Assembly (NCBI GenBank): GCA_025454875.1
Contig: JALONP010000001.1
Span: 124,001-188,000, forward strand
Direction of reading: 5' to 3'
From: Bacteroidia bacterium
GTDB taxonomy: Bacteria > Bacteroidota > Bacteroidia > UKL13-3
DNA: 64,000 nucleotides
In this document: one piece after another, positions 41,914 to 63,995 of the stretch
How positions within the stretch are numbered: position 1 is the first letter of the stretch
Layout: every line of letters starts with the position of its first letter
The notes under the pieces: generated by a model
What the model was told of the DNA's origin: nothing
The model's database searches: none
What the model saw: the letters and a program-made list of their open reading frames with translations, nothing else
Translations under genes and position numbers: made by a program

Positions 41914-42600
41914 TTAGTGTATTACTGAAAAACGACCTGTTGTGATGTTTGCTCCTGTTGCTGATTGTATGCGGTAAACATAGATACCGTTTGCATAATT
42001 ACTTACATTGGTTCTTGCCTCTCCCATTGATACTGGGACTGTTTCAATTAATTTACCCGAAACATCTAAAATCTCAACTAATACATTATCGGCTGTTAAA
42101 GAAATAGTGAATGTTTGAGAGGCTGGATTTGGATATGCTTTTACCGAGTTAGCTATCGCAGCCAACTCAGGAGTAGTTGTAGGGAAAAACTTCAACGATC
42201 CCAAAACACAATCACCATTATTCAAATCATTTGTATCAATTGTAGAATCGGCAAAAAATGCAACCACGCACATGAGTGCAGAATCTAGTTCTTCTGTAAA
42301 TGTTAAGTTTAAGCCTCCATTTGGGGGTGAAAGCAGCAATGAATCACCAGGAGCAATTTTTACTGCACCCCTCAATTGGTTTCCAATAACCTGAAAATTC
42401 AATAAAATAGCCACATTAAAAGTATCTGTGGTTTGTATGGTATCCGTTCCAACATTTTTTACTCTAAAGTTCACTGGAAAAGGACGCTGATCGTTAATCT
42501 CAAAACCGTCTTGTGGATTCACGAATTGAATTTGTAGATCTTTTTGCGCACTTGCTGTTAATGCCCAAATGCCAAGCATTGATAGTAATAGTTTTTTCAT
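41914..42600 (-). CDS. Small secreted protein with T9SS type A sorting domain
   Basis: The 228-residue protein starts at ATG 42600 with a signal peptide (MKKLLLSMLGIWALTASAQ). Residues 20-135 form a CARDB-like Ig fold (NFRVKNVGTDTIQTTDTFNV, LTFTEELDSALMCVVAFFAD). Residues 150-228 are the T9SS type A sorting domain with AYPNPASQTFTISL, EILDVSGKLIETV and YANGIYVYRIQ. It is cleaved and anchored or released by the type IX system; the cargo role is unknown. It has no catalytic motif. The uvrC gene lies upstream with a 126-base gap between them. Confidence 0.88.
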   Translation of the reverse strand: MKKLLLSMLGIWALTASAQKDLQIQFVNPQDGFEINDQRPFPVNFRVKNVGTDTIQTTDTFNVAILLNFQVIGNQLRGAVKIAPGDSLLLSPPNGGLNLTFTEELDSALMCVVAFFADSTIDTNDLNNGDCVLGSLKFFPTTTPELAAIANSVKAYPNPASQTFTISLTADNVLVEILDVSGKLIETVPVSMGEARTNVSNYANGIYVYRIQSATGANITTGRFSVIH

Positions 42601-48064: not shown

Positions 48065-49090
48065 ATGTCGCGTAATCCAAATCTAAACAGTGATGAAGAA
48101 AACCTATCTGGTCCTGAAAAGGAATTGGAAAGGGTATTAAGACCAAAGCAATTTGAGGATTTTACTGGGCAGGAACAAATCATTGAAAACCTTAAAGTAT
48201 TTGTAAAGGCTGCAGCTCTTCGTGACGAAGCTTTGGATCATGTTTTATTGCACGGTCCGCCTGGTTTGGGCAAAACAACCTTAAGTTATATTATCGCTAA
48301 CGAGCTTGGTGCCAATATCAAAACAACTTCAGGCCCTGTGCTTGAGAAACCAGGTGACTTAGCAGGTCTTTTAACCAACCTCGAAAAAGGAGACGTGTTG
48401 TTTATTGATGAGATCCACCGGTTAAGTCCTGTGGTAGAAGAGTTTTTGTACTCCGCAATGGAAGACTACAAAATCGACATCATGATCGATTCGGGGCCTA
48501 ATGCGAGAAGCATCCAACTAGAGATTCACCCATTTACCTTAATTGGCGCAACAACGAGGTCGGGATTGCTGACATCGCCTTTACGGGCTCGATTTGGAAT
48601 TAACGCGCGGCTTGAATATTATGATAAAAAATTAATGCATCAAATCATTACGAGATCAGCCGCTATCATCAACTCTCCTATCGAGTCAGATGCTGCTTAT
48701 GAAATTGCGCGCAGAAGCAGAGGTACGCCACGTATTGGAAATGCCTTACTAAGAAGAACGCGTGATTTTGCGCAAATTAAAGGAGATGGAACCATTACTC
48801 TCGATATTGCCAAATTCGCATTAAACGCCTTAAATGTAGATGCCGAAGGATTGGATGAAATGGATAATAAAATCCTTAAAACCATTATCGAAAAATTCAA
48901 GGGCGGACCTGTGGGTATTACAACCATTGCAACCGCAATCGGTGAAGAATCTGGAACAATTGAAGAAGTGTATGAGCCTTACTTAATTCAAGAAGGTTTT
49001 TTAACCCGCACTCCTCGTGGACGTGAGGCAACTGAAAAAGCGTTTAAACATTTTGGCAAGCTATCACACAAAGGTGGTTCACTGTTTTAA
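48065..49090 (+). CDS. ruvB: Holliday junction branch-migration helicase RuvB
   Basis: The 341-residue AAA+ protein has the full RuvB pattern: [19 protein letters not shown], Walker A GPPGLGKT at 64-71, Walker [18 protein letters not shown], the sensor region [39 protein letters not shown] and the C-terminal winged helix ([19 protein letters not shown]). It drives branch migration with RuvA during recombination repair. Its last 12 bases overlap the convergent GT2 gene end at 49079. Confidence 0.98.
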
Positions 49091-50059
49091 CAACGCTTTT
49101 GCAGTTAAATACATTCCTTTATAAAACGGCTGCTTATACCAATTTGGTAATTGACGGTGCCCCCTCAAGTATTGGTATAATCTTGGAGAAACGGCAAAAT
49201 GATAATAAAGTGCATTGTTGCACACTTCGGTTAATAGCATGTTCGATTCTTGTTGTAAGATAGCACTAACACGCGATAACAAAGCGGTTAAATACTCAGG
49301 CTGTGTTGGTGGTTTTTGGTAACGATTGGTTAATAAAATAAGCGCTTCGATAGCATCCAACGACAGATTTGGCATAAGGTACCGTGCATGTTCAATTTGC
49401 AATTGCTTGCTTTTACTTGAAATCGCTGCAACGTTTTTTTGGTAAGTGGCATTGTGCTTTCTAAACCTAATAAGGGTATCTGGTAAATTGGCCAACTTGG
49501 TTCGTTGAGCAATCCGCATCCACAAATCAAGATCCTCACAATATTCAAACTGCAATCGGTAGGGATCACCAAGTTGTATCAATAAACTTTTGCGCATGCA
49601 TACGGCTGAATGAACAAAAGGATTTGAGGTTAACATTTGCCAACAAATGGCACTATGCGATAACGGTAGGCTTATCGCTCTTCCTCCTATACATGTGTAT
49701 TGTGTACCAAGCAATCCAACTTCAGGATGTGCCTCTAAATAACCAACTTGCTTTTCAATACGTTGTTTGTGGGCAATATCATCTGCATCCATTCGAATAA
49801 TGTATTTACCCTGAGCAAGGGAAAAACCCATATTAAGCGCTGCAACAATTCCTTTATTCGCTTGATGTGTAACAACCCGAATGCGCGAATCATTAAATAA
49901 TCTAATGGTTTCTGCACTGTTGTCGGTACTACCATCATTCACTATAATGAATTCGAAATGAGGATAGGTTTGATTGCAAATACTCTGAATAGCCTTTTGT
50001 AAGTAAGCTCCTCCATTAAATACAGGCATTACAACCGATACCAAAACAGGGTTATCCAT
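49079..50059 (-). CDS. Glycosyltransferase family 2 protein
   Basis: The 326-residue GT-A protein has the GT2 A family signature: [33 protein letters not shown], the nucleotide-binding [14 protein letters not shown] and [14 protein letters not shown]. It adds one sugar to a growing glycan on the cytosolic side of the inner membrane. It is the last gene of the glycan locus, overlapping its upstream GT4 gene by eight bases (ATGGATAA). Confidence 0.9.
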
Positions 50060-51203
50060 TTTGTACTCCTTCCCAAATTTTCAGAAACTGTTGCCACTGC
50101 ACCTGTTTGGTAAATGTTTGTTGGGCCAATGACTCACTTTGTTGCTGCTTAAATAACAAATGCTCATCCTGCATCGCTTCGATCATGGATTTAGCGAGTT
50201 CTTGTCCATTAAGTGGGGTAACAAGCCAGCCATTGTTAGCCCATAAATCTCGCAAACCACCTACATCGCTCATAACAAAACCGAGCCCTGCACCTAATGC
50301 TTCCAGTGCAAAAATTGACAGCCCTTCATACCTACTAGGCATTAAGACTACATCACTTTTTTGCAAAATAGATGCGATGTGTTCATGCGGTAATTCCTCA
50401 ATATGATTTACCCATGCATATTGCGATACTTCCTTTTTAAATTGATTCGCATATTCTCCGGAGCCTATAATGGTTAGTTTTGCATCCAACCGAAGCGCAG
50501 TTTCATTTACCAAAGGCAGTGCTTCCAGTACCAAATCAAATCCCTTTTGTTTGTAACCTTCTCTATCCATCCTACCAAGCATTACAAATTGCTTAGCAGC
50601 ATGAATAGCGCTTCTATTAGACACCGCCTTATTTACAGTATTGATGCAAACTCCTGCCCCTACAATTGAAGCCGATTTTAAAAGGTATTGCATTGCAAAA
50701 TGAAGATGATACGCATTGGTAGCACTTACAAACCGAATATTATAGGCACTTAAATTGCGCCATACAAATTTACGGATACGGTATTTTTTTGCTTTACTAA
50801 CCAGCAAATACTCTGTATCACTTGTGGCATGAAAACGTACCACTGTTTTGTGCAGCACCTTTCGGTTTAAGGATGCTAACAACAGTGGATCATCTCCCGT
50901 CTCAACCCAAACCATATCATATGAATAGGCGTCATTGAGTTTATTAATAAATCCTGCACGTTTACCAGAACTGTAAAGCAAACCCAACAACCAAACAGAC
51001 AATTTTGGCGTGTACCTAAAAATACGAAGCAGCGGATGTTGAAAAGGCTCTTCTCGACCAGCTTCTAATAATTCAGGCGTTACAACATCAACTTGTACCC
51101 CTTGTTCGAGTAAGGTATCAATCAACTGCACAAATGCATGGCTGTATCCCGATTGTTGGGGCAAAAAAACAGGGCAATAAACAAGAATGTGTTTAGGTTT
51201 CAT
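50052..51203 (-). CDS. Glycosyltransferase family 4 protein
   Basis: The 383-residue GT-B protein starts MKPKHILVYCPVFLPQQSGY at ATG 51203, which overlaps glf by 11 bases. The GT4 signs are VMLGRMDREGYKQKGFDLVL, LTIIGSGEYANQFKKEV, VLMPSRYEGLSIFALEALGA (with the EGLSIFALEA E-x7-E motif) and FVMSDVGGLRDLW. It probably adds a sugar, possibly galactofuranose given the neighbouring glf, to the polymer; that is inference. Confidence 0.88.
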   Translation of the reverse strand: MKPKHILVYCPVFLPQQSGYSHAFVQLIDTLLEQGVQVDVVTPELLEAGREEPFQHPLLRIFRYTPKLSVWLLGLLYSSGKRAGFINKLNDAYSYDMVWVETGDDPLLLASLNRKVLHKTVVRFHATSDTEYLLVSKAKKYRIRKFVWRNLSAYNIRFVSATNAYHLHFAMQYLLKSASIVGAGVCINTVNKAVSNRSAIHAAKQFVMLGRMDREGYKQKGFDLVLEALPLVNETALRLDAKLTIIGSGEYANQFKKEVSQYAWVNHIEELPHEHIASILQKSDVVLMPSRYEGLSIFALEALGAGLGFVMSDVGGLRDLWANNGWLVTPLNGQELAKSMIEAMQDEHLLFKQQQSESLAQQTFTKQVQWQQFLKIWEGVQNG

Positions 51204-52305
51204 TTTGCAAGTGTTTTTGAGCCTTATGTAATGCCGATGCAATTACTTGGTGCATATCGTAATACTGATAATCAGCAAGCCTCCCCCCTACAATCAAACG
51301 TGAATCTTTTTTAACCATGTCACGGTATTGCCTGTACCGAGCATTGTTGGCAACATCATTCACAGGATAATATGGTTCTACGCTTTCATTGTAAGCTTGA
51401 GGAAACTCATAAGTAATCACTGTATCAGGTGTTGATTTGAAATCAAAATGTTTGTGTTCAATAATGCGCGTATAAGGCACATCGTTCGAAGTGTAATTTA
51501 CGACCGCATGCTGTTGAAAATTAGAAACACCTTCCAACAAACGATGCTCAAACCGCAACGATCTGTACTCAAGTTTACCGAAACAATAATTAAAAAAAGC
51601 ATCAATAGGTCCGGTATATACAATATGCATGGCCTGTTTGTTCCAATATTCACGATCAGTTAGAAAATCAATGTTTAATTCTATGTCAATTCCGGCAGTT
51701 AAGCCATTGATTAAGGGATTGTATCCTCCAACTGGAATTCCTTGGTACAAATCAGCAAAATAATTGTTGTTGTAAGTAAGCCTAATGGGAATGCGTGTGA
51801 TTAAGAATGCAGGCAATTCTGAACAAGGTTTCCCCCATTGTTTTTCAGTATAATGCTTAATGAGCGTTTCATAAAGCTCGGGGCCAACCAATTGCAGTGC
51901 TTGCTGCTCTAAGTTTATCGGCTTTTGTTTTTTGTATGGAGCCGTTTCAATATCCAATTTCAGCCTAGCCTCTTCTGCAGTTGTTACGCCCCACATCTGC
52001 TCAAACGTATTCATGTTAAATGGCAATGCGTATAAAGTATCAAAATATTTTGCTTTAGGCGAGTGCACAAATGGCTTCATTTGAACAAATTGATTAACAA
52101 ATTGCCAAATTGATAAATCACTCGTATGAAAAATATGAGCTCCGTATTGATGTACTTGAATGCCATTTACTTCTTGGCACCAAACATTGCCACCAGCATG
52201 TGCTCTTTTATCTATTATTAAACAACGTTTGCCTGCCTGCCTCATGGCATAAGCAAAGGTGCTTCCAAACAAACCAGATCCAACAATCACAAAATCATAT
52301 TTCAT
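51193..52305 (-). CDS. glf: UDP-galactopyranose mutase
   Basis: The 370-residue flavoprotein starts MKYDFVIVGSGLFGSTFAYA at ATG 52305, in a 4-base ATGA overlap with the flippase. FAD-binding GSGLFGST, HIFHTSDLSIWQFVN, the substrate region YNNNYFADLYQGIPVGGYN and the C-terminal IVGGRLADYQYYDMHQVIAS are all typical. It interconverts UDP-galactopyranose and UDP-galactofuranose, so the encoded glycan probably contains galactofuranose. Confidence 0.96.
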   Translation of the reverse strand: MKYDFVIVGSGLFGSTFAYAMRQAGKRCLIIDKRAHAGGNVWCQEVNGIQVHQYGAHIFHTSDLSIWQFVNQFVQMKPFVHSPKAKYFDTLYALPFNMNTFEQMWGVTTAEEARLKLDIETAPYKKQKPINLEQQALQLVGPELYETLIKHYTEKQWGKPCSELPAFLITRIPIRLTYNNNYFADLYQGIPVGGYNPLINGLTAGIDIELNIDFLTDREYWNKQAMHIVYTGPIDAFFNYCFGKLEYRSLRFEHRLLEGVSNFQQHAVVNYTSNDVPYTRIIEHKHFDFKSTPDTVITYEFPQAYNESVEPYYPVNDVANNARYRQYRDMVKKDSRLIVGGRLADYQYYDMHQVIASALHKAQKHLQNET

Positions 52306-53765
52306 ACGGATGCTGTTTGTTTGGTTAACAATTGTTGAAAAGCAAAACAAAGAGTTGATTGCTTGAATAACCAATACTGCAATCCACCATAAATAAAGGT
52401 GCAAAGTAAAACACTTAAGAAAAGTACTGCCCAATTAGGCAATTGCATTTCTCTAACTACCCAAATAATCGGAATAAAGGTTAGTGCAATGAAAGCATTA
52501 TACAATAATTGAATCCATGGAAACTGGATTGCGAACTGTTTTCGTACAAAAACCATTGTTGCAGTTAACACTGCAAGCTCTGCTCCTAACATTGCCCATG
52601 CCGCACCAATATGTGCATTTATCGGAATACATATCAATGCTAATACAAGGTGGATAACCAACCCCCAAAACACACTTATGAGCAATGCCATATCTTTTCC
52701 TGCTACCGCAAGGATTTGCATACCAAATAAATTACTTAGTCCTATACTTATTGGCAATATGGCTAAAATTTTCATAGCAGCAATAGCCGGCATATATGCT
52801 GTTCCTGAAAAAAGCAAGATGCATTCGGGTGCCAATAAAAACAAACCTACAGACATTGGAACAGCCAAATCGGCAACAAATAAAAATGAATAGTGTAAAT
52901 GGATATTTTGAGTATCGCTCTGGTTTAAACTGCGGGCAGTTCGAGGAATGAGCATATTGCCTAATGAAGTTACGAATGCAATTCCAATTTTACTAAGCTT
53001 TAAGGCAGTGGTGTAAAACCCCACTGCAATAGCTGTGCTTAGCAATCCAACCCATACTGTATCAAAAACAGTATACATAATAATGCAGAGTTGAGTAAGC
53101 CCTAAAATCAAAATGGGTTTAAGGTGTGTTGCGATTCGTCCCTTTATTAAAGATAGTTTCATGTTGACTTGATATAGATGTATCCACAACAATGCGTTTC
53201 CACCAACAAATGAAACGACAACAATCAATACATACCAAATGGCATCTGAAGGATTGTGAATACACAAAAACATAGCAACAGAAGCCCCCAATCTTAAAAT
53301 CAATGTTCTTAAGGCAATTGCTCTAAACGCCTCAAGTCCAACCAGTAACCACTCAATAGATGTCCAACTCAAAAACACCTGCACACCAGCAACCCATAAT
53401 AATTTTGTAGAGGCAACTTGCAATTCAAAAAAGGAAATTACAACAATATAAACGATACTGGTTGCAAATGCAGTTATGAGTTGCAAACGCAATAATGCAG
53501 CACACAAATTGTTTCGCTCCTCCATGTTTTCATTGGCTTTCGCCAACTCACGTACGCCATAAATTGGAATACCTAACGAGGCTACAAGCATAAAATACCT
53601 GCTAAACTGCAAAGCAAATTGTGCTTCTCCTAAACCCTGAGGTTCAAGGAATCTGGCAATGTATGGAAATACAAATACTGGAAACAGCAAATTGGATACT
53701 GTCCACATGAAGTAATAACCATATTGTTTTTGCAACGAAACCATGCTTGTTGAAGCTTGACGCAT
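52302..53765 (-). CDS. Wzx-type polysaccharide flippase
   Basis: The 487-residue protein has about 12-14 membrane helices and the MATE/MOP flippase opening YFMWTVSNLLFPVFVFPYIA with LEPQGLGEAQFALQFSRYF, typical of O-antigen Wzx. It moves undecaprenyl-linked oligosaccharide units across the inner membrane. The start may be ATG 53765 or ATG 53741 (MVSLQKQYGYYF). No Wzy polymerase is visible in this window, so polymerisation is either done elsewhere or the unit is transferred singly. Confidence 0.88.
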   Translation of the reverse strand: MRQASTSMVSLQKQYGYYFMWTVSNLLFPVFVFPYIARFLEPQGLGEAQFALQFSRYFMLVASLGIPIYGVRELAKANENMEERNNLCAALLRLQLITAFATSIVYIVVISFFELQVASTKLLWVAGVQVFLSWTSIEWLLVGLEAFRAIALRTLILRLGASVAMFLCIHNPSDAIWYVLIVVVSFVGGNALLWIHLYQVNMKLSLIKGRIATHLKPILILGLTQLCIIMYTVFDTVWVGLLSTAIAVGFYTTALKLSKIGIAFVTSLGNMLIPRTARSLNQSDTQNIHLHYSFLFVADLAVPMSVGLFLLAPECILLFSGTAYMPAIAAMKILAILPISIGLSNLFGMQILAVAGKDMALLISVFWGLVIHLVLALICIPINAHIGAAWAMLGAELAVLTATMVFVRKQFAIQFPWIQLLYNAFIALTFIPIIWVVREMQLPNWAVLFLSVLLCTFIYGGLQYWLFKQSTLCFAFQQLLTKQTASV

Positions 53766-53798: not shown

Positions 53799-54779
53799 TT
53801 ACGCACCACCAACGCAAAAAGCAGCAAGCGGTTTAATCCAGTTGCTAGCTGTAGTTGCTTCATACCGGTGAACAAAAGCAGGATTCGCCTTATTAAATTT
53901 ACCCGATACAATAGTTGAAAACGCTTCATCAATGGTAGAAAAAGTCGTACAACCAGACTCGTTTGCCAAATCAGCCAACCCGCCAATGGGATATGCTACC
54001 AAATTGGTTCCAACCAAAATGCTTTCATGAGCAACCCGGTTCCAACCTTCTTTTACAAAAGGGAAAGCAACACTACAATATGCTGAACCAAGTCGTGCCA
54101 AATATGACTCAAAATCTTCATGGATAACTTCAAATGGGTGCAAAGTGTCAGCTAGTTTTACAGGATGCAAAGAAGCAAAGTAACACTTGAAGCCCGCACC
54201 ATGCAATCGAGAAGCAAGGGCAAATATATCAGGATGGTTTTTGGATGACCACTGCCCCAAACAAATATACCTCGATTTACCAGTTGTTTGATAGCGCTTA
54301 TATTGAGCTACTTCAAACACGTTTGGAAAATGAATTACAGGTATTCGGTGCTGAACTTCATTTTCAAAAAAGTGAATCCAAAAAGGCGAAACTCCAACAA
54401 TGGCAAATCGCTCTTTAGGCAAATGTCGCACTAGCTTTATCAGCAAGTAATAATAGACCTTTAATAAATGCGAGCCAAAATAACGTGAATCAAAATGATG
54501 GAGCACCACAATCACTTTTCGTTTCGAAAACAGGTTTCGAATGATGGCACTTACCCCTAACCTACCAACAACAATATTGATGTCGGCATTTGATTGAATC
54601 ACTCCCCAACATAGTAAATACAATTGTGCAATACCTTTAAAAAAACGCCATTTTCTAGTTATACGAAGTGTGGATGGTTGCAGTTCTTGTTGCAAAGTTT
54701 TGGCTAAAAAAGATTCGTGTGCGAATCCTCCTGTTGGCAGTGGGCCATGTGATAAGTATACAATTGATAATGGATTCAC
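53799..54779 (-). CDS. Glycosyltransferase, GT4-like
   Basis: The 326-residue protein uses a GTG start directly after the PorU2-like TAA (TAAGTG, no intergenic base; AGG precedes as a Shine-Dalgarno hint). N-terminal SIVYLSHGPLPTGGFAHESF is GT-B-like. The C-terminal domain has YICLGQWSSKNHPDIFAL and the motif VAFPFVKEGWNRVAHESILV with the E of EGWNRVAHE typical of the GT4 E-x7-E region. Family assignment is moderate; it may belong to a less common GT-B branch. It is cotranscribed with its neighbours. Confidence 0.75.
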   Translation of the reverse strand: MNPLSIVYLSHGPLPTGGFAHESFLAKTLQQELQPSTLRITRKWRFFKGIAQLYLLCWGVIQSNADINIVVGRLGVSAIIRNLFSKRKVIVVLHHFDSRYFGSHLLKVYYYLLIKLVRHLPKERFAIVGVSPFWIHFFENEVQHRIPVIHFPNVFEVAQYKRYQTTGKSRYICLGQWSSKNHPDIFALASRLHGAGFKCYFASLHPVKLADTLHPFEVIHEDFESYLARLGSAYCSVAFPFVKEGWNRVAHESILVGTNLVAYPIGGLADLANESGCTTFSTIDEAFSTIVSGKFNKANPAFVHRYEATTASNWIKPLAAFCVGGA

Positions 54780-57700
54780 TTACCTCATTAAATATATTTT
54801 GCCGGTGTTTTGGATAAAATAATTGTCTTTCACCGTTTCCTTATGCTTTATCGATTGGCCGTTTAGTTGCGTTTGCACTTGGTATAAATAAACACCATTG
54901 GCTAAACGATCGCCAAAATTGTCTGTTCCATCCCAAACAAAAGTAGAAACGTTATGCCCTATTTTGATTGGGCCAAATTCATCTTGCCGAACTTCACGCA
55001 CCACCTTCCCTGTGATAGTCATAATTCGAACCAATAAACCATCCGGAGGCTGCGAACCAGTTACGGTAAATACAAAGCGCATTTGGGTTGTACACGGATT
55101 GGGATATGGATAAAAATGGGTAATGCTGCTCTCATTTACAACATTAAACTCTACTTCATAACCATTCGTCCCAGCTGCATTTCCACTCGCATCTTTGCTC
55201 AACACTTTAAATTTATAAAGTCCGTCTGCTAAAGCTTGAGGTTGGTATCGTAACTCAGCTTTGTTTTGAGAAGTAGATGCGGGGATAAATTGCATCTCAC
55301 TGCTTTGAATAGGAATTTGGGTGTAGTTTGCATCTGTCGGTTTTTTAAGCCATACAGCAAACGTACCCGTATCAATTTGCAACTTAAACGGATTGGCATC
55401 TGTTGAGCTAATTCGTATAGTGGGTGACGGTGAAACATAATCACCATTCATGATTCGGTATCCATCAAACGTTACATCCATCAATGGATTTGACTGATCT
55501 GTTGCAACCTCAATTGCTTGTGTGTAAATATTATTCACTAGGTTACGTTCTGCAATCATTCGGTTAGGATTAACTGTTACCACCATTTGGCACTTGCCCG
55601 AAAGTGTTGTTGTAGCCAAAGTATCACCAATAATAAAAAATTGTTGCGGGGCAAGTGGGGCAAACTTTTGCAATTGACTGTATTGCAATGTTCGATCGCT
55701 GCCAAACAACTCTATTCTTACAGGAACACTATCCATTGGCTGTGTCGACACGTTTTGAAACGCAATTTGAAAACGCACCGAGTCGCCTTGATCAAGCTTC
55801 GGTTTGTAAAATACATTTTTAATGGTAGGTGCCAAAGTACCTTCTGGCGCAGCATCATAGAGCACTGACCATTGAACAAGTTGGCTCGGGGTGCGCGCAA
55901 TAGAGTCTGTCATTAATAGTTTTAACCGCACAAAAGGATACGTTTGGAAAGGCACATCTGTTATGGTGTATTCATTAGGTCCATTCCACTCCTTTAACAA
56001 GGTGTCTTCACCAAAACCTTTGTTGCCCCAAAGTTGAATTTTGAGAATATCAGTTGACATAGGCTCCCTACTGCGTGTAGCAATGCTTACTGTTTTCCAA
56101 CTTGTTGATGGCCCAATTAGTGAAGACATGAGTTCACCTGATTTTTGAAACCCTTGCAATACTGATGTAGCAACGACCAGATTAGCTGTATCGGCTGGGT
56201 TTGGCGCATTGTATAGGTTGTTAAAAATCGTATCTTCGGCTATCGTGCCAGGGGTGCTTCCTTTGCGGCCAATCATTGCAAATGCCGAATAAAAATTTTG
56301 AATTGCTGCAGTTTTAGTCGATCCTATTTTTGTAAATGCAGCACGGGTTTGTGGAGTCCAAGTATCTGAACCAACATTGTAATAGCTATAAGAGGCCACA
56401 ACATAGCCATCAGGTACTGAGTCAATAAACCGTTGAAACTCTTGCTGACCAATAAGTGTCTTGGTATCAAATGTATAATACTTATGTCCAAAACTACTTG
56501 GAAAAGAACAGTTAATTGGAAAACGCGGATTCACAAATGGCTGCAAGGTAACAGGGTTAAACAAAATACACACAACACCGCCTGAGCCAATACAATTAAA
56601 AACACCAGGGTTCAATGGTTCCGGATATAACACCCCTAACCCACCATGTACCCACCTTCCAATTTTCACGGTTAACAATGCACTAAAATCTAAAAAGTTA
56701 AATGTATTTTGAGTTGAGTCCCATACCAAATCGGTAGTACCATTGGTTTTAAATTGTTTAGGTGCAACTTGGCTCCAACCTAACCTACCTGATGAAACAT
56801 GGCTAAAACTTTCAGTAACCCAATAACCACCTTCGGCAAGAGGAACATTGAGTCTGGCACGCCAAAAATAAGCAACTGTATCTTCTGATTGTTGCAATGC
56901 TACTTTCCAAGTTGCTAAGTTCGGTGCTGAAACTATTCCTGACGTTTTAAGCCAGGAGGAATTAAATAGTGGCGTAGTATCCAACTCAAAAATAAATTCA
57001 TTTTGAGCAGCAAATACATTATTGCTTTGTGCGAGCAGCATTACCGTATCATTGGGAACAACCTGATAAGGATAAGGCTCGATGAGTTGTAAACCTTGCC
57101 CTGGCAAAAAGTAGGTAAAGGTTGCTGCATTGTTTTGAGCGGTAATTTCTGACACCGTATTCAATGGATTTAAAGTAACTTCAAACACATTGTTGCCCAC
57201 CATTTGGTTGTCTTTCCCTGGAACCCAAACAAAAAAAGTGTCTTTATAAAACAATGGAGATTTGATAAATGGTCCATAAGTAAACCGCCTTCCATCTGGT
57301 AACGTTCGGGTCAAGGTAAATGAAAATGAATCGGACGTGGCTTTGGCCAAATTACGCGCAATAATGGCTACCGCAAATGAATCATCTTGTACAGTGGCAT
57401 TTTGAGGAAAAACAAATAAGTCGGAATTTTGAATTGCATAATCCGGTTTAGAAGGCTGGTAAATGACTACAGCAGGATCACCTTGATAAAGCCACTGCGT
57501 GATATGCGACTTCGAAACTTCGTCAGTTCCAGGAAAATTGGCTGCTATTGATTGAATAAGTTTGCCAATTGGAACACCATATTGGGTTACGGTATAACGT
57601 TGGTAAAAGCTATTCAACAACGTGTTGAGTTGGTTTGTGTAAGAAAAGTTGGTATGAGCCAACCACCCTATTGCGCCTTTGTTAGGAAAACACAGATAGT

Positions 57701-59771
57701 TTTTTGCGTAAACATCTCCAGAATTACCTGGGTCTTCTACATTGGCATTTCCCACATTGCAACCGCTGAAGTAATACAATGGATACTTCCGAGGATTGTT
57801 AAGTTCAAAAATGTTCCCAATATCCATATCCAGTACTGTTAAAGATGCATGTCCGTAAAAGGAAACCATGCTCACACCACTATTTTGCACTGCCAAAATA
57901 CGCTCACGCAAATTAGCCTGTTGTGAACTTAAAGAGTTTTTATTAAAAGTAGTTACATTCGCTCCAACATAAGCACCTTCAATGGTTTGTTCATTTGACT
58001 TAAATTGGTTTTGAAATGAAATTTGCTCGGCCTCACCAGTACCTCCAGTTACGTGCAACACTTCTTTTCGCCATGGCAAAATCGAATCAGGTGCCGTTTC
58101 GTAATCAATTAGTTTTGCTAAATAATTATTGAGTTCTTCATTCGTTGCAGCTGGAATTCTACCAGTGGCTATTTGAGGATAAACACCATTGTTTGTGATA
58201 CCTGAAGTAAATAAATGATCTGAAGAAGGTACACCAATTGCAGGAACCAAATTTTGTTGGTAATACAACCCGTTGTTTCTGGTTAAGTTATTTTGGTAAC
58301 CTCTTCCTGCTAATAATAAATACTCTGGAGCAATATTCGAATTTTGAATGATATGTGAAGCAAACTTTCGAATTGCCAATGGATGAACCTGACCAAAGGT
58401 GTAAGTATTATATAACTGTTGGGTAGTAACAGTAAGTACTTTAAAACGACTGCTTCTGTACTGCGCATAACTAGTAGCTGCAGGCAATAAATTGTCGGAA
58501 GTAACAATTAGAAACTCATAATTTTCTCCTGGATCGGGAATATTGAATACAATGGGCTGCAACTTTGAAACTGGAATACGATTGAGGCTATCTGTTAAAA
58601 AAATGGCATGTGGCACACCATCATTTGTAATCAATCCATTTACCACCCCACTACTGTAAGTTGTTACAATACGTTGGTTTAACGTTAAATCATACAATAC
58701 TGGATTTTGCTGCAAGCCATTACCATAGTTTACAAACTGCAGCCTCGATTTGAGCCCTCCTTTATGGTGATTAACAGAAGCAAGCAACTGAGTAGTGTTT
58801 AGCAATTGCGGCTCTCGTGCATAGGTTAAAGTCACAAACGCCAACGAATTAAAATCAGCAGCAACGCCTAAGTCATTAATTACCCTTAGGCTAAAATCGG
58901 TTGTATTGTTTCCGATCTGGTTAACATTAACTGTTCCCGACAAATTAACAACATCATAACCTCTGTATGTTCGATCGGCTAACTGAACGTATCCATTATT
59001 ATCGCCTCCAACCCAAAGCTGGATATGGTGATTCACATTACTGGTCGTTGCTGCATTGGATGTACCTAAAACCTTGGCAGCAAATGTTGGGGTAAAAGAT
59101 GCGGCAGACTTTGCTGGCGTTTGGAGTGAAAAAATACGCTGGGTGCCCGCTCCAACACGATAGCTAGCCCACCCTTCACCCAAATCATATGCAGAAAGAT
59201 AATACCTTACTTCAGAGGCAATACCTGCATAGTCTTGACCTTGATAGTACTCTTCAAATGGAACCGACCTCACTTCACTTAGCACATAATCTTGTGGGGT
59301 GTATAAGCCAAAATTAACATCTGATGTTTCTATCATTCGCAATCCATTCCTGACACTTGTATCGGGAAGAACAGTTAAAAAATAATAAGAGGTGTCGGAG
59401 TATAAACTTTTAAAATCCAACAATTGAGCCGAGGCTGGTGTGTAAAGCATACTATCCATCTTGCCATCATTGGGCTTAGCATAAAACTCAATTACATCTG
59501 TACTGTTAAAAACACCATCTGCTTGACCTCTAATAAAAATTGGAACCTCGGTACCATTTACAAAAAGCTGAAAACGTTTAGGATGAACCCCGGATAAAGA
59601 TAAGCCACTATTTGCGAGTGTAGTTGAATCGATGGTATATATGCCTGAATTGGCAATGGGAAACTTAAAATAAGGTTGATAGGTTTTAATCCAATCGAAA
59701 CCAAACTGTGCGTTTGAAATTACCGTTACTGTAAGCAGCACGAATAACAAGTTTATCTTTACAAAACGCAT
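54780..59771 (-). CDS. PorU2-like C25 peptidase of the type IX secretion system
   Basis: The 1663-residue protein starts at ATG 59771 (the TTG at 59780 is weaker) with a signal peptide (MRFVKINLLFVLLTVTVISN). The gingipain-type C25 domain is in the middle: GRIPAATNEELNNYLAKLID, catalytic H641 (FYGHASLTVLD) and C671 (YYFSGCNVGNANV), spacing 30 as in gingipains (33). N- and C-terminal flanks hold Ig/CARDB-like strands (RNLVNNIYTQAIEV) and the end carries a FlgD-like Ig segment (TFVWDGTDNFGDRLANGVYL) without the PNP T9SS tail motif seen in cargo proteins. PorU cleaves sorting domains and attaches cargo to A-LPS; PorU2 is the name used for this long relative. The gene lies inside the glycan locus. 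Confidence 0.85.
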   Translation of the reverse strand: MRFVKINLLFVLLTVTVISNAQFGFDWIKTYQPYFKFPIANSGIYTIDSTTLANSGLSLSGVHPKRFQLFVNGTEVPIFIRGQADGVFNSTDVIEFYAKPNDGKMDSMLYTPASAQLLDFKSLYSDTSYYFLTVLPDTSVRNGLRMIETSDVNFGLYTPQDYVLSEVRSVPFEEYYQGQDYAGIASEVRYYLSAYDLGEGWASYRVGAGTQRIFSLQTPAKSAASFTPTFAAKVLGTSNAATTSNVNHHIQLWVGGDNNGYVQLADRTYRGYDVVNLSGTVNVNQIGNNTTDFSLRVINDLGVAADFNSLAFVTLTYAREPQLLNTTQLLASVNHHKGGLKSRLQFVNYGNGLQQNPVLYDLTLNQRIVTTYSSGVVNGLITNDGVPHAIFLTDSLNRIPVSKLQPIVFNIPDPGENYEFLIVTSDNLLPAATSYAQYRSSRFKVLTVTTQQLYNTYTFGQVHPLAIRKFASHIIQNSNIAPEYLLLAGRGYQNNLTRNNGLYYQQNLVPAIGVPSSDHLFTSGITNNGVYPQIATGRIPAATNEELNNYLAKLIDYETAPDSILPWRKEVLHVTGGTGEAEQISFQNQFKSNEQTIEGAYVGANVTTFNKNSLSSQQANLRERILAVQNSGVSMVSFYGHASLTVLDMDIGNIFELNNPRKYPLYYFSGCNVGNANVEDPGNSGDVYAKNYLCFPNKGAIGWLAHTNFSYTNQLNTLLNSFYQRYTVTQYGVPIGKLIQSIAANFPGTDEVSKSHITQWLYQGDPAVVIYQPSKPDYAIQNSDLFVFPQNATVQDDSFAVAIIARNLAKATSDSFSFTLTRTLPDGRRFTYGPFIKSPLFYKDTFFVWVPGKDNQMVGNNVFEVTLNPLNTVSEITAQNNAATFTYFLPGQGLQLIEPYPYQVVPNDTVMLLAQSNNVFAAQNEFIFELDTTPLFNSSWLKTSGIVSAPNLATWKVALQQSEDTVAYFWRARLNVPLAEGGYWVTESFSHVSSGRLGWSQVAPKQFKTNGTTDLVWDSTQNTFNFLDFSALLTVKIGRWVHGGLGVLYPEPLNPGVFNCIGSGGVVCILFNPVTLQPFVNPRFPINCSFPSSFGHKYYTFDTKTLIGQQEFQRFIDSVPDGYVVASYSYYNVGSDTWTPQTRAAFTKIGSTKTAAIQNFYSAFAMIGRKGSTPGTIAEDTIFNNLYNAPNPADTANLVVATSVLQGFQKSGELMSSLIGPSTSWKTVSIATRSREPMSTDILKIQLWGNKGFGEDTLLKEWNGPNEYTITDVPFQTYPFVRLKLLMTDSIARTPSQLVQWSVLYDAAPEGTLAPTIKNVFYKPKLDQGDSVRFQIAFQNVSTQPMDSVPVRIELFGSDRTLQYSQLQKFAPLAPQQFFIIGDTLATTTLSGKCQMVVTVNPNRMIAERNLVNNIYTQAIEVATDQSNPLMDVTFDGYRIMNGDYVSPSPTIRISSTDANPFKLQIDTGTFAVWLKKPTDANYTQIPIQSSEMQFIPASTSQNKAELRYQPQALADGLYKFKVLSKDASGNAAGTNGYEVEFNVVNESSITHFYPYPNPCTTQMRFVFTVTGSQPPDGLLVRIMTITGKVVREVRQDEFGPIKIGHNVSTFVWDGTDNFGDRLANGVYLYQVQTQLNGQSIKHKETVKDNYFIQNTGKIYLMR

Positions 59772-59840
59772 ACTGATCAAACGAATCCCTTTTGGTTATA
59801 GTATGGCTCGAAAATAACACTAAATTGTGTAAAACGAACG

Positions 59841-61730
59841 TTAAAAACGGTACTGAAAAATCTTGGATAGTGGCTTAAGCAATAATGTGTACCACTTAGG
59901 TTTCAAATCGTTTACTTCCCAGGCTTTCAAGTCTTCGCGGTTTGCTTTGTAACGGTTTTGTAAACTGCGGTTGCTTTGTCCACCTATGCGCATTTTAACC
60001 CAAACTTGTGGTATGTAAAAAACCTTGGCTTTGTGTACAAGTAAAAAACGAAGCATTAACTCATAATCTGCTGCAGATCGAAGTTCCGTATTAAATCCCC
60101 CGAATTTTTTATATGCTTCTTTGCGAGCAAAAAAAGTTGGATGTGGTGGCATCCATCCTTTATAAAACGAATTGGGACGGTATTTTCCTGAGCGCCATTT
60201 GCGAAGTACTTTGTCTTGGTTTTTACGGTGAACATAATCCAAATCAGCATATACAGCATCTGTATTTTCATTTTCAAACACAGAAAGTACCTGCCTTAAT
60301 ACGTTTGGCCCAGCATAAAAATCATCTGCATGCAAAAAGCCTATAACTTCCCCTGTAGCCAACTCAATGCCTTTGTTCATAGCAAAGTACATTCCTTCAT
60401 CTGGCTCTGAAATTACATGGGTAATTTGGCTTGCATACCTATTAATAATTTCTTTGCTTCCATCATAAGACCCTCCATCAATTACGATGTATTCTACATT
60501 CACCAAACGTTGACTAAGCACTGATTCAATGGCTTGGGCAATAAAATCTTTATTATTTAAAAGTACGGTAATAATGGTAATTTTAACCTTGCTAAGGGTA
60601 ACTTCTGGAAGCTGGTAAAAATGAAACGTTTGGTTCAATACTTTATCCAGCGTGAGTTCACGAAGCATCTTTGCTCTGGATGCTTGTCCCATTTGTAAAC
60701 GCAAGTCAGCGCTCGACAACAAATTATCAATCGCATCTGCCAATTCTGTGGTAGATTTTACAGGAACCAAAAAGCCATTTACCCCATCGTCAACACATGA
60801 TTTGCAACCTGCAGTATCCGTTGTTACAATTGGCCTCCCAACTGCCATAGCTTCTACCAATGATTTAGGCAGTCCCTCTCGGTACGATGGCAGGCAAACA
60901 ATATCTGCTTTCACACATTGCTCATACATATTCTCCATATGCCCTAACCACGTTAGATATCCCGGTACATGAATTCCAAATAATTCACTTTCATGCATCG
61001 TTGAAGGGTTGTTTGTGTCAGTAGCTCCTACCAGAACAAATTCGACCTTTCCTTGCCATTTTTCTTTAAGTAAAATTGCAGCTTTAATATACTCCCTCAC
61101 TCCTTTATCAAGTAACATTCGACCTGAGAAAAGCACCCTTATCTTCGACTTTACTTCGGGTTCTTTATATGCGAAGAGTTGTTCATTTACTCCAGAACCT
61201 TTAATAATGATGTGATTACCTGAGTGAACATATCCTAACTGCATGTAAAAATCTCGGTCGTCTTCATTTTGAAAAATGAACTTGATTGATTTATACTTAA
61301 AAGCAAAATTCATTAGCCCCTTTACGAGGGTGCGCATCACATATCGGGTATTATCGGTAAATACATAACCTAAACCAGCTACAGCATTTACAACCATCGG
61401 TTTTGTTTGTGCAAAGAACCGAACTGCGATAGACCCATACAATACCGGCTTAATGGTTACATGATGGATAATAACAGGATTGTGTTGGTTATAGATATGG
61501 CCTAATGCCCAAATTAGCCTAAAATCTTTAAATGGATTTTTACTAGATGAGTCGAAATCTACGTCAATAAACCCAATACCATACGATTCAATCTCTTTTC
61601 GTTTTCCTGTGTTTTTAGACACCAACAATACATGGTAACCACGATTCATCGCCTCAATTGCCAGTGGCAACCTGTGCGATAGGAAGAACCAATCGGAATT
61701 AACTACATATATAATGGTATTTTTATGCAT
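59841..61730 (-). CDS. Bifunctional glycosyltransferase, GT4-GT2 fusion
   Basis: The 629-residue protein fuses two enzymes. Residues 1-375 are GT4: YVVNSDWFFLSHRLPLAIEA, FSGRMLLDKGVREYIKAA, FVLVGATDTNNPSTM and VCLPSYREGLPKSLVEAMAV. Residues 380-629 are GT2: ITIITVLLNNKDFIAQAIES, IVIDGGSYDGSKEII, the metal-binding GFLHADDFYAG and RSAADYELMLRFLLVH. It could add two successive sugars. The linker near residue 375 (FHFYQLPEVTLSKVK) is short and the frame is uninterrupted, so this is one protein and not a sequencing artefact. Confidence 0.92.
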   Translation of the reverse strand: MHKNTIIYVVNSDWFFLSHRLPLAIEAMNRGYHVLLVSKNTGKRKEIESYGIGFIDVDFDSSSKNPFKDFRLIWALGHIYNQHNPVIIHHVTIKPVLYGSIAVRFFAQTKPMVVNAVAGLGYVFTDNTRYVMRTLVKGLMNFAFKYKSIKFIFQNEDDRDFYMQLGYVHSGNHIIIKGSGVNEQLFAYKEPEVKSKIRVLFSGRMLLDKGVREYIKAAILLKEKWQGKVEFVLVGATDTNNPSTMHESELFGIHVPGYLTWLGHMENMYEQCVKADIVCLPSYREGLPKSLVEAMAVGRPIVTTDTAGCKSCVDDGVNGFLVPVKSTTELADAIDNLLSSADLRLQMGQASRAKMLRELTLDKVLNQTFHFYQLPEVTLSKVKITIITVLLNNKDFIAQAIESVLSQRLVNVEYIVIDGGSYDGSKEIINRYASQITHVISEPDEGMYFAMNKGIELATGEVIGFLHADDFYAGPNVLRQVLSVFENENTDAVYADLDYVHRKNQDKVLRKWRSGKYRPNSFYKGWMPPHPTFFARKEAYKKFGGFNTELRSAADYELMLRFLLVHKAKVFYIPQVWVKMRIGGQSNRSLQNRYKANREDLKAWEVNDLKPKWYTLLLKPLSKIFQYRF

Positions 61731-61806: not shown

Positions 61807-62916
61807 TTAGCCAATCTGTTCAAATGTTTGTTTGTAGTATTGAATAATGTATTGCTCATCAAATGATGCGCACATTTTAGTTCGACTTGCGGCACCCATT
61901 CTAACCCGTTGTTGCTCGCCCAGTTGAATAAATGTCAACATGCACTGAGCAAGTGATTCTGCATTTTTTACTTCACACAAATAACCATTTTCACCATGCA
62001 CAATTAACTCTTTGCAACCGGTAACGTTTGTTGCAATGAGGGGCTTGGCCATAGATGCTGCCTCCATAAGTACTTTAGAAATACCTTCGCGGTAAGAAGG
62101 TAAAACCACACAATCAGCATCTCTTATTTGGTTTTTTACCTCCTGTGAGGTCCCTAAATAGTCAATGTACCCTGCTTCGTGCCATTGCATCACTGTGCTT
62201 TTCGAAACCGCACTTGGATTGTCTGCATCGGTTGGACCTAAAAGCTGAAAAATAGCATTCGGATATTGGGATTTAACTATTTGTGCTGCGTTAACGTATT
62301 CCATTACCCCTTTATCCCAAAGTACCCTTGCAATCATAAGAAACCGGATATGAGTATCATTGATTTGCTTAGGCTCTGGAGCAAATTCGGTTGTATTTAC
62401 ACCCTCACCCGGCAAAAGCACCACTTTCTGAGAGTCTACGAGTTTTTGATTGATGAAATAATCAATATCATCTTGGTTTAAAAACCATACCTGTGTTGCT
62501 TTGCTCAAAGCATAACGGTACATCTTTTTAACAAGTGTATTAATCCATCTTTTGGTTATAAATGCATATCCCAATCCGGTTATAATTGCAATACTTGGAA
62601 TTTTTAAACGCTCAGCAGCGGTTGTTCCATAAATATTAGGCTTAATGGTGTATTGAAAAATAATGTCTGGCTTAATCTTCGCATACACTTTTTTGAGCTG
62701 AGCGTATAGCTTGAGTTCTTGCAATGGATTAAGCGTTTTAGTTTGAAACTGAATGGGGTGAAAATAACACCCGAGGTTTTGAACTTCATGCGTTTTATGA
62801 TCTACCGGAGCTATTACATGTACTTCATAACCTTGTTCAATAAAGTACTTCAATACCCCCTTGCGGAAATAGTACATGCTGAATGAAGAGTTTGACACAA
62901 AGGCTATTTTTGGCAT
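61807..62916 (-). CDS. Glycosyltransferase family 4 protein
   Basis: The 369-residue GT-B protein starts MPKIAFVSNSSFSMYYFRKG. GT4 signs are IRFLMIARVLWDKGVMEYVN, AIFQLLGPTDADNPSAVSKS and CVVLPSYREGISKVLMEAAS, then ATNVTGCKELIVHGENGYLC. The segment FQYTIKPNIYGTTAAERLKI is shared in type with the first half of the GT4-GT2 fusion downstream, so the two genes look like relatives that arose by duplication. It overlaps the next upstream gene by 13 bases. Confidence 0.92.
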   Translation of the reverse strand: MPKIAFVSNSSFSMYYFRKGVLKYFIEQGYEVHVIAPVDHKTHEVQNLGCYFHPIQFQTKTLNPLQELKLYAQLKKVYAKIKPDIIFQYTIKPNIYGTTAAERLKIPSIAIITGLGYAFITKRWINTLVKKMYRYALSKATQVWFLNQDDIDYFINQKLVDSQKVVLLPGEGVNTTEFAPEPKQINDTHIRFLMIARVLWDKGVMEYVNAAQIVKSQYPNAIFQLLGPTDADNPSAVSKSTVMQWHEAGYIDYLGTSQEVKNQIRDADCVVLPSYREGISKVLMEAASMAKPLIATNVTGCKELIVHGENGYLCEVKNAESLAQCMLTFIQLGEQQRVRMGAASRTKMCASFDEQYIIQYYKQTFEQIG

Positions 62917-63995
62917 CCGTTGTTTATTACATCAATCCATTGAAGTATCGAACGTTTTTTGTCAAACTTTTTTGCCAAAACTGCATATCCGTTATCAATA
63001 AAACGTTTGCGCATTTCGGGTTGTGTGCAAAGCAAATTAATACCATTTGCAATGTTTTGCAAATCTCCTGGCGAATAAAGCAATCCATTTTCATTATGGG
63101 TAACCTGTTCCGGTATTCCGTCTATTGCAGTACTCACAATTGGAATACCGTATTGCATCGCCTCTAGTAGAACCGTTGGCATGCCTTCACGGTAGGTTGG
63201 TAAAACAAAAAGATCAATCGAACCAAAAAAGGAAGCTTTATCGTTGATATGACCAATCAATTTAAAATGTTTGTCAAGTTGAGCTTGTTTGACCTTAAGA
63301 GAAAAATCGCCATTTGTTAAATCTTCTCCTGCGCACAAAAAAGTGGGTGAAATCCCTTTTTGTAAAAGCAATACACAAATACCAATTAAGTCGTAATGGC
63401 CTTTCGACTCCCTGATATTGGCGAGTAATCCAATATTAGGGTTTTGGAGTATACTGGTTGCAATATTATTTGCTTGAACTTGAATCGAATCAATATAGTT
63501 GTAAATAACTTGGATGCGGTTTGGGTTAATTTTTTCTCGATGCACAAATGCCTCCTTCCCTGCTTGCGAGTTTGCAACCCAACAACTTACACTTCCTTGC
63601 GAAATGCGATCAATGAATACATGCCAGTGGTTACGAAAGCTATCGGTACTTCGTATATTTGAAATAATGCGTGCTTTAGGTAAAAAAATGGGTGTCAATA
63701 TTCGGGAGAAAAACTCTACTCTTAAACCAAAGTTCATCACCACATCAAACTTTTCGTTTTGCAACAATTTTTTATAAACGCTTATCGTATGAAATGGGGT
63801 AATACTTGTTTTGCCTACCAAAGTGCAACTTATTCCCTGTTTAGCAGCTTGCTCAAAAAGGGTTCCGTTGTTTTCGGCTGCTGCAAAGTGAACCTTGTAT
63901 CCCTTCGACATCAACTCAACTGCAACTTTAAGCATATTGGTTTCGGCTCCACCTATTCTAGTTACTGAGAAGAAAAAGAGTATACTCTTCGACAT
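62904..63995 (-). CDS. Glycosyltransferase family 4 protein
   Basis: The 363-residue GT-B protein starts MSKSILFFFSVTRIGGAETN five bases inside the right edge, so the gene is complete but its promoter and any upstream partners are not seen. GT4 signs are NIGLLANIRESKGHYDLIGI, TFLCAGEDLTNGDFSL, LFVLPTYREGMPTVLLEAMQ and IVSTAIDGIPEQVTHNENGL. It probably continues the glycan locus to the right. Confidence 0.92.
   Translation of the reverse strand: MSKSILFFFSVTRIGGAETNMLKVAVELMSKGYKVHFAAAENNGTLFEQAAKQGISCTLVGKTSITPFHTISVYKKLLQNEKFDVVMNFGLRVEFFSRILTPIFLPKARIISNIRSTDSFRNHWHVFIDRISQGSVSCWVANSQAGKEAFVHREKINPNRIQVIYNYIDSIQVQANNIATSILQNPNIGLLANIRESKGHYDLIGICVLLLQKGISPTFLCAGEDLTNGDFSLKVKQAQLDKHFKLIGHINDKASFFGSIDLFVLPTYREGMPTVLLEAMQYGIPIVSTAIDGIPEQVTHNENGLLYSPGDLQNIANGINLLCTQPEMRKRFIDNGYAVLAKKFDKKRSILQWIDVINNGCQK

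Follow-up and report, generated by a model that had tools for sequence, protein, structure and literature searches.

PorU2, a putative sortase of the type IX secretion system (T9SS), adjoins a divergent glycosyltransferase, gtW11, in the window, as we call the whole 64,000-nucleotide stretch of Bacteroidia DNA analyzed here. The informative links of PorU2 are those with gtW11 specifically and with a POMGnT1-stem-like domain inside PorU2. Because PorU2 lies beside a glycosyltransferase that keeps close to it in many relatives and has a sugar-binding-like module of its own, it may anchor secreted proteins on a chain of surface sugars. As a whole, we tentatively read PorU2 as joining T9SS cargo to a gtW11-finished glycan with the sugar held in cis, which is possible but falls somewhat short of probable. 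Below, handles denote genera (g), genomes (G), loci (L) and contigs (C).

PorU2 is 1663 aa long and encoded at 54780..59771 on the minus strand (open frame 54780-59780, first ATG at 59771), with a signal-peptide-like N-terminus. Its residues 9-881 match the NCBIfam model NF052324, ‘putative type IX secretion system sortase PorU2’, at 711.1 bits against a cut-off of 450. The PorU model NF033707 scores 211.7 bits, under its cut-off of 420, so the protein is not PorU. It is a known kind, as NCBIfam already names PorU2 and PorV2. The peptidase C25 domain spans residues 420-768 (57468..58514, minus strand; PF01364, E 3.5e-54). G640-H641 and C671 are invariant in 28/28 PorU2s of alignment A3, which holds the window PorU2 and 27 of the 40 listed ones. 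By analogy to C25 peptidases, we take His641 (57849-57851, minus strand) and Cys671 (57759-57761, minus strand) to be the candidate catalytic pair. Judged from sequence, this second anchoring enzyme is probably active. Its C-terminal T9SS-signal-like or FlgD-Ig-like domain (54846..55106, minus strand) scores 28.6 bits with FlgD_ig (PF13860), and with TIGR04183 20.2 bits per protein or 27.0 bits in the genome search (cut-off 23). A sequence search of PDB with PorU2 gave 0 matches at E 0.01.

The true PorU of the window's genome is its second C25 protein, on contig C16. PorZ and PorV2 are also present, away from PorU2, along with 117 TIGR04183 and 13 TIGR04131 matches. Since PorU and PorZ are there as well, PorU2 may be dispensable for anchoring cargo. 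The precedent is P. gingivalis, in which removal of the CTD and attachment of cargo to A-LPS are the work of PorU, to which the A-LPS is delivered by its binding protein PorZ (PMC8545088; PMC7468200). There, PorZ has two propellers (PMC8545088), PorU is described as a transpeptidase, and the linking sugar is described as well (PMC7468200). PorU2 resembles the P. gingivalis PorU/PorV/PorQ/PorZ complex in sharing the C25 domain, the GH and C positions and the FlgD-Ig/T9SS-like C-terminus, a likeness judged against PorU of the same order. It differs from PorU in length (~1660 vs ~1290 aa), in scoring under the PorU equivalog cut-off, and in having the stem/CBM-like region described below, while coexisting with a true PorU. 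With respect to NCBIfam PorU2 and PorV2 (NF052325), the window PorU2 is over the cut-off and PorV2 is in the genome, but the two are unlinked. No paper naming PorU2, or PorV2 in the T9SS sense, was found in the open-access literature, which is weak evidence as subscription papers lie outside it.

The PorU2 TAA (54782-54780) abuts the GTG (54779-54777) of the 326-aa gtW11 frame on the minus strand with no base between. Thus, the direct run of stop into glycosyltransferase start (TAAGTG) that the first-pass annotation had described is borne out by the frames 54780-59771 and 53799-54779. The GTG start is credible because the resulting N-terminus equals that of the homologues (...YLSHG...TGG..HE; alignment A1). 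The spacing is 0 bp in the window, L014 and L015, and -1 bp in L018 and L019; with near-zero spacing recurring in relatives, the abutment is no accident of one genome. A single message for PorU2 and the glycan genes is plausible, although PorU2 is separated from its upstream gene by 60 bp.

The minus strand carries every gene between 49079 and 64034. Read downstream, they are two GT4 glycosyltransferases (62904..63995, with the open frame continuing to 64034 beyond the window, and 61807..62916), a GT4-GT2 fusion (59841..61730), PorU2, gtW11 (53799..54779), a Wzx-like polysaccharide flippase (52302..53765; PF01943) whose position is the same in genus g14, the UDP-galactopyranose mutase glf (51193..52434; TIGR00031, 385.6 bits, cut-off 303.75), another GT4 (50052..51242) and, at the 3′ end of the run, a GT2 (49079..50059), the free-standing GT4 and GT2 genes being assigned by Pfam. 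The true start of glf is probably near 52305. The whole PorU2-containing polysaccharide locus is ~32 kb and continues past the window as far as about 80888 by the same numbering. That outer part encodes a UDP-GlcNAc 6-dehydrogenase (TviB over cut-off), a TviC-like epimerase, a Gfo/Idh dehydrogenase, a DegT-type aminotransferase resembling 4-aminotransferases, a NeuD-type acetyltransferase, a second Wzx-like protein, a polysaccharide deacetylase, a formyltransferase and a RimK-like ATP-grasp protein.

Judging by its genes, this surface-polysaccharide locus probably uses an N-acylated (N-acetylated) uronic-acid sugar. Judged by family assignment, the genes fit an N-acetylated uronic-acid sugar but do not establish a complete A-LPS linking-sugar pathway, taken as WbpA, WbpB, WbpD, WbpE, VimA and VimE, and the claim of such a pathway in the locus was rejected. 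Separately, the deacetylase and formyltransferase form a plus-strand pair (L003:8092-9869, or 64092-65869 in window numbering) that breaks the minus-strand glycan locus.

Loci were fetched around 40 PorU2 genes of the family, 21 PorU genes as control and 20 PorU2 genes of other families; the GTDB family and order contain the identical 64 genomes. PorU2-model matches at E 0.001 or better occur in 64/64 family genomes and exceed the cut-off in 59/64, the weaker second matches being PorU. GT4/GT2 genes make up 53/559 genes in family PorU2 loci, 5/296 in PorU loci and 8/287 in other-family PorU2 loci, although the profiles were built partly from PorU2-locus genes, favoring matches there. Loci with at least one GT4/GT2 number 15/40, 4/21 and 4/20, respectively, so glycan settings are over-represented in some of the family without being a rule. 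A general PorU2-glycan rule is rejected, as there is no ordinary GT4/GT2 near PorU2 in 25/40 family and 16/20 other-family loci. The first-pass annotation held that gene order itself ties a PorU relative to glycan assembly. This stands insofar as PorU2, its catalytic pair intact, is part of a glycan operon and its abutment on a glycosyltransferase recurs, but it fails as a general rule; the distance from glycan genes that was named there as counting against the idea was found, in this survey of PorU2 homologues, in much of the family and in most of the other families sampled.

In the other families, a PorV2-like gene is followed directly by PorU2 in 11/20 loci, and a 140-aa piece of one such neighbor matches NF052325, ‘putative type IX sorting system protein PorV2’. 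Here, in contrast, PorU2 is beside gtW11, and PorV2, present in 61/64 genomes of the order, is apart from PorU2 except in G032. Alternatively, PorU2 could be a T9SS sortase or peptidase that acts together with PorV2 on some of the cargo; operon shuffling would have brought it into the glycan locus as a by-product, with no common substrate. The adjacency in other families, the wide occurrence of PorV2 in the order even if unlinked, and the lack of ordinary glycosyltransferases in most PorU2 loci agree with this. However, it leaves unexplained why gtW11 is near PorU2 in non-glycan settings, why gtW11 is absent where PorU2 is solely of the early-branching kind, and what the stem-like domain is for, and we regard it as a serious but rather doubtful alternative. 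Incidentally, tandem PorU2 copies occur in two other-family loci (L144:7336-17937 and L148:1311-12546), the latter with a PorV2-like gene between the copies.

Linkage of PorU2 to gtW11 was followed across the order. Both genes are found in 51/64 genomes; gtW11 is missing from 10 others and a listed PorU2 from 3. The distance is ≤6 kb in 25/51 genomes from 8 genera (g1, g4, g5, g6, g9, g10, g11 and g14) and 9.9-16.7 kb in 9/51, all g2, and the genes are on different contigs in 17/51. Four contigs break inside PorU2 and retain its end next to gtW11 (L110, L111, L114 and L115; by coordinates G060, G061, G054 and G056), so that adjacency is hidden in g14, which affects 3 of the 17 different-contig genomes and one genome without a listed PorU2. 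gtW11 is directly downstream of PorU2 in g1 (G000), g5, g6, g10, g11 and g14. One gene intervenes in G063 and in two g4 loci, and two in a third g4 locus. In g9, gtW11 is divergent, about 112 bp upstream of PorU2, beside genes that read as DnaJ- and GrpE-like from sequence. gtW11 keeps near PorU2 in g4, g6 and g9 despite other surroundings. Among the fetched loci, it is found in 17/40 family PorU2 loci by clustering (18/40 by profile) and near PorU in 0/21.

A cluster c35 gene also appears at this position in two genomes. It lies between PorU2 and gtW11 in G063, and between PorU2 and Wzx in place of the missing gtW11 in L026 (genome G058, g14). By sequence, the other c35 members look like heptosyltransferase-type GT9.

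The presence of gtW11 varies with the kind of PorU2. It is absent from 6/6 genomes having early-branching PorU2 alone (G020, G032-G035 and G053) and present in 53/58 others, where genomes outside the PorU2 tree were assigned to clades by genus and the 58 include G014, G055 and G056, without a listed PorU2 match. Fisher's test gives p 6e-6, treating genomes as independent with kinship uncorrected. The six genomes reflect one deep split plus G020, few independent events; G020 is 99% complete and lacks both the second PorU2 and gtW11, which three of its four congeners have. Overall, the PorU2-gtW11 linkage is of few independent origins as the sequences read, and the link is new as far as searches of the open literature go.

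The PorU2 tree (36 rows: 29 family loci, the window and 6 of the 20 other-family loci; SH-aLRT support, quick method) places g3 copy 1, g7, g8 and g13 as early branches, followed by the second g3 copy, then g10, and then two clades. All members of the g1/g5/g11/g14 clade are in glycan loci, and those of the g2/g4/g6/g9/g12 clade are outside them. The glycan-locus state needs two changes on this tree. One reading is a single entry before g10 with a later exit in the second clade, when gtW11 went with PorU2 and the GT2 neighbor stayed; two separate entries are equally cheap. In genus g3 (G021-G024), each genome has two diverged PorU2s; the first branches early, and the second is sister to the clade linked with gtW11.

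That GT2 neighbor lies 5′ of PorU2 and is represented in the window by the GT2 domain of the fusion (59841-60596), a conserved neighbor in five genera. Relatives of at least 45% identity are found in 19 other fetched loci, all at position -1 on the same strand; several of these are one assembly counted twice, and all were fetched around PorU2, PorU or gtW11. Genome-wide, it occurs in 50/64 genomes, adjoining PorU2 in 15 genomes, all from g1, g5, g10, g11 and g14, and lying elsewhere in g2, g4, g6, g9 and g12. The block GT2-PorU2-gtW11-Wzx-glf-GT4-GT2 is common to the window and g14. GT2 has different N-terminal fusion partners in three genera, GT4 in the window (59841-61730) and others in L014:5510-7327 and L025:5744-7384, and is otherwise free-standing.

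gtW11 is nearly confined to the order, where 53/64 genomes have it. It occurs in 1/296 genomes of a phylum sample, that one being the window's own, while PorU2 is over cut-off in 28/296; being much wider than gtW11, PorU2 in general does not need it. A scan of named genome contigs yielded 69 gtW11 loci; uncultured Bacteroidota account for nearly all the strong ones. Conversely, for 31/60 rows of the gtW11 tree the DNA stretch around the gene contains no PorU2, suggesting that gtW11 also works away from PorU2. As for gene integrity, gtW11 is longer than the usual ~328 aa in several g9 genomes (351-420 aa; L021, L121, L122 and L090), and its profile match is in two pieces in G040, G041 and G043, as if by a mid-gene insert.

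The AlphaFold model of gtW11 (pLDDT 94.4) has a GT-B fold with Z 24 to BshA and HepE, and is alike over its whole length to the GT4-family GT-B enzymes BshA, HepE, PglA and PimA (Z 22-24). E244 and E252 are invariant within EGW.R..HES in alignment A6 (the window gtW11 and 32 of the 53 listed), in agreement with the C-terminal E-x7-E-like motif of a GT4/GT-B enzyme. Unlike those enzymes, the window gtW11 has no glycosyltransferase match in Pfam at E 1 or in NCBIfam, and weak PF13692 and PF00534 matches appear in 24/33 and 23/33 members. The gtW11 profile gave 0 matches against PDB.

With such an enzyme next to PorU2, gtW11 and the flanking GT2 might instead O-glycosylate PorU2 or its cargo, making the link one of enzyme and glycoprotein and not of acceptor supply. 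T9SS cargo CTDs are reported to be glycosylated in Cytophaga hutchinsonii (PMC11858162), and the protein O-glycosyltransferase SdgB is among the gtW11 fold neighbors, as are many other enzymes. Yet those neighbors are functionally diverse, and gtW11 accompanied by Wzx and glf in g1 and g14 fits lipid-linked assembly better, making O-glycosylation improbable.

Within PorU2, a POMGnT1-stem/FAM3 (ILEI)-like domain is predicted at residues ~1029-1209 (56145..56687, minus strand). PF15711 (ILEI) matches residues 1100-1172 (E 6.7e-8, 33.4 bits, gathering 27). The domain interrupts, as an insert, a predicted CBM-like β-sandwich at residues ~994-1307 (55851..56792, minus strand). The model of residues 985-1320 (pLDDT 82.4) superposes on the human POMGnT1 stem with Z 18.8 and 2.2 Å over 149 residues at 17% identity, and FAM3 proteins come next with Z 14-16. 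The sandwich reaches Z about 9 to CBM61, CBM16 and CBM4, and also to MAM and ephrin-receptor folds, a middling score that gives a fold class only. The profile of the stem part matches 37/40 family PorU2s, 9/19 other-family PorU2s and 0/21 PorUs. Likewise, Pfam ILEI is found in 13/28 PorU2s and 0/20 PorUs (alignment A4, 20 of the 21 PorUs).

GlcNAc is among the sugars bound by the POMGnT1 stem and FAM3C, and the POMGnT1 contacts are Arg129, Asp179 and Arg207 (PMC9802357). In FAM3 alignments, whose mapping is uncertain, at least two contact residues, the Asp and the second Arg, are apparently replaced in PorU2. Taking the stem fold as proof of sugar binding was therefore rejected: the fold match is strong but the residues apparently differ, and a fold shows no function. 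The PorU2 domain is like the POMGnT1 stem and FAM3 domain in predicted fold, but is bacterial, is inside a sortase and apparently has not kept the sugar-contact residues. As modeled, such a domain in a T9SS sortase is new as far as searches of the open literature go.

C25 peptidases include secreted proteases. PorU2 could accordingly be imagined as a peptidase releasing or trimming surface proteins instead of anchoring them, with the stem/CBM-like module tethering it to surface polysaccharide, and its own T9SS-signal-like C-terminus would suit this, but the idea is very unlikely given that a PorU-type sortase model is the family it matches best and that P. gingivalis PorU is described as a transpeptidase (PMC7468200).

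From the PorU2 identity, the conserved catalytic residues, the gene order, the linkage and co-occurrence with gtW11 and the predicted folds, we infer sortase activity, a glycan acceptor, sugar binding and a part of gtW11 in making the acceptor. In the reading we favor, PorU2 would be a second T9SS sortase, a PorU paralogue. After outer-membrane crossing, it would cut off the C-terminal signal of cargo via His641/Cys671 and attach the C-terminus so formed to a glycan on the cell surface. The acceptor, in this order, would be made or finished with gtW11 as a dedicated GT-B glycosyltransferase; in genera that have PorU2 within the polysaccharide locus, that locus would supply the rest. The POMGnT1-stem-like domain and the CBM-like sandwich would hold or position the glycan in cis, doing what PorZ does for Porphyromonas PorU. 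PorZ and PorU2 would then share the role of bringing glycan to a sortase, PorZ as a separate two-propeller protein and PorU2 with an inbuilt part, although this genome has PorZ too. That PorU2 is a self-contained glycan-recognizing sortase with PorZ-type function in cis, forming with gtW11 a second anchoring pathway parallel to PorU/PorZ, is a stronger statement and an unlikely one.

Detailed knowledge of the chemistry of T9SS anchoring comes mainly from oral pathogens, where PorU needs PorZ to bring A-LPS (PMC8545088). A PorU2 with a sugar-binding-like fold and a tied gtW11 offers a testable route to the glycan of environmental Bacteroidota having both PorU and PorU2. Two more T9SS type A sorting domains are in the window, at 37088-37306 and 41929-42138 (contig C26:161088-161306 and 165929-166138), on frames of 1510 aa and 250 aa, respectively.
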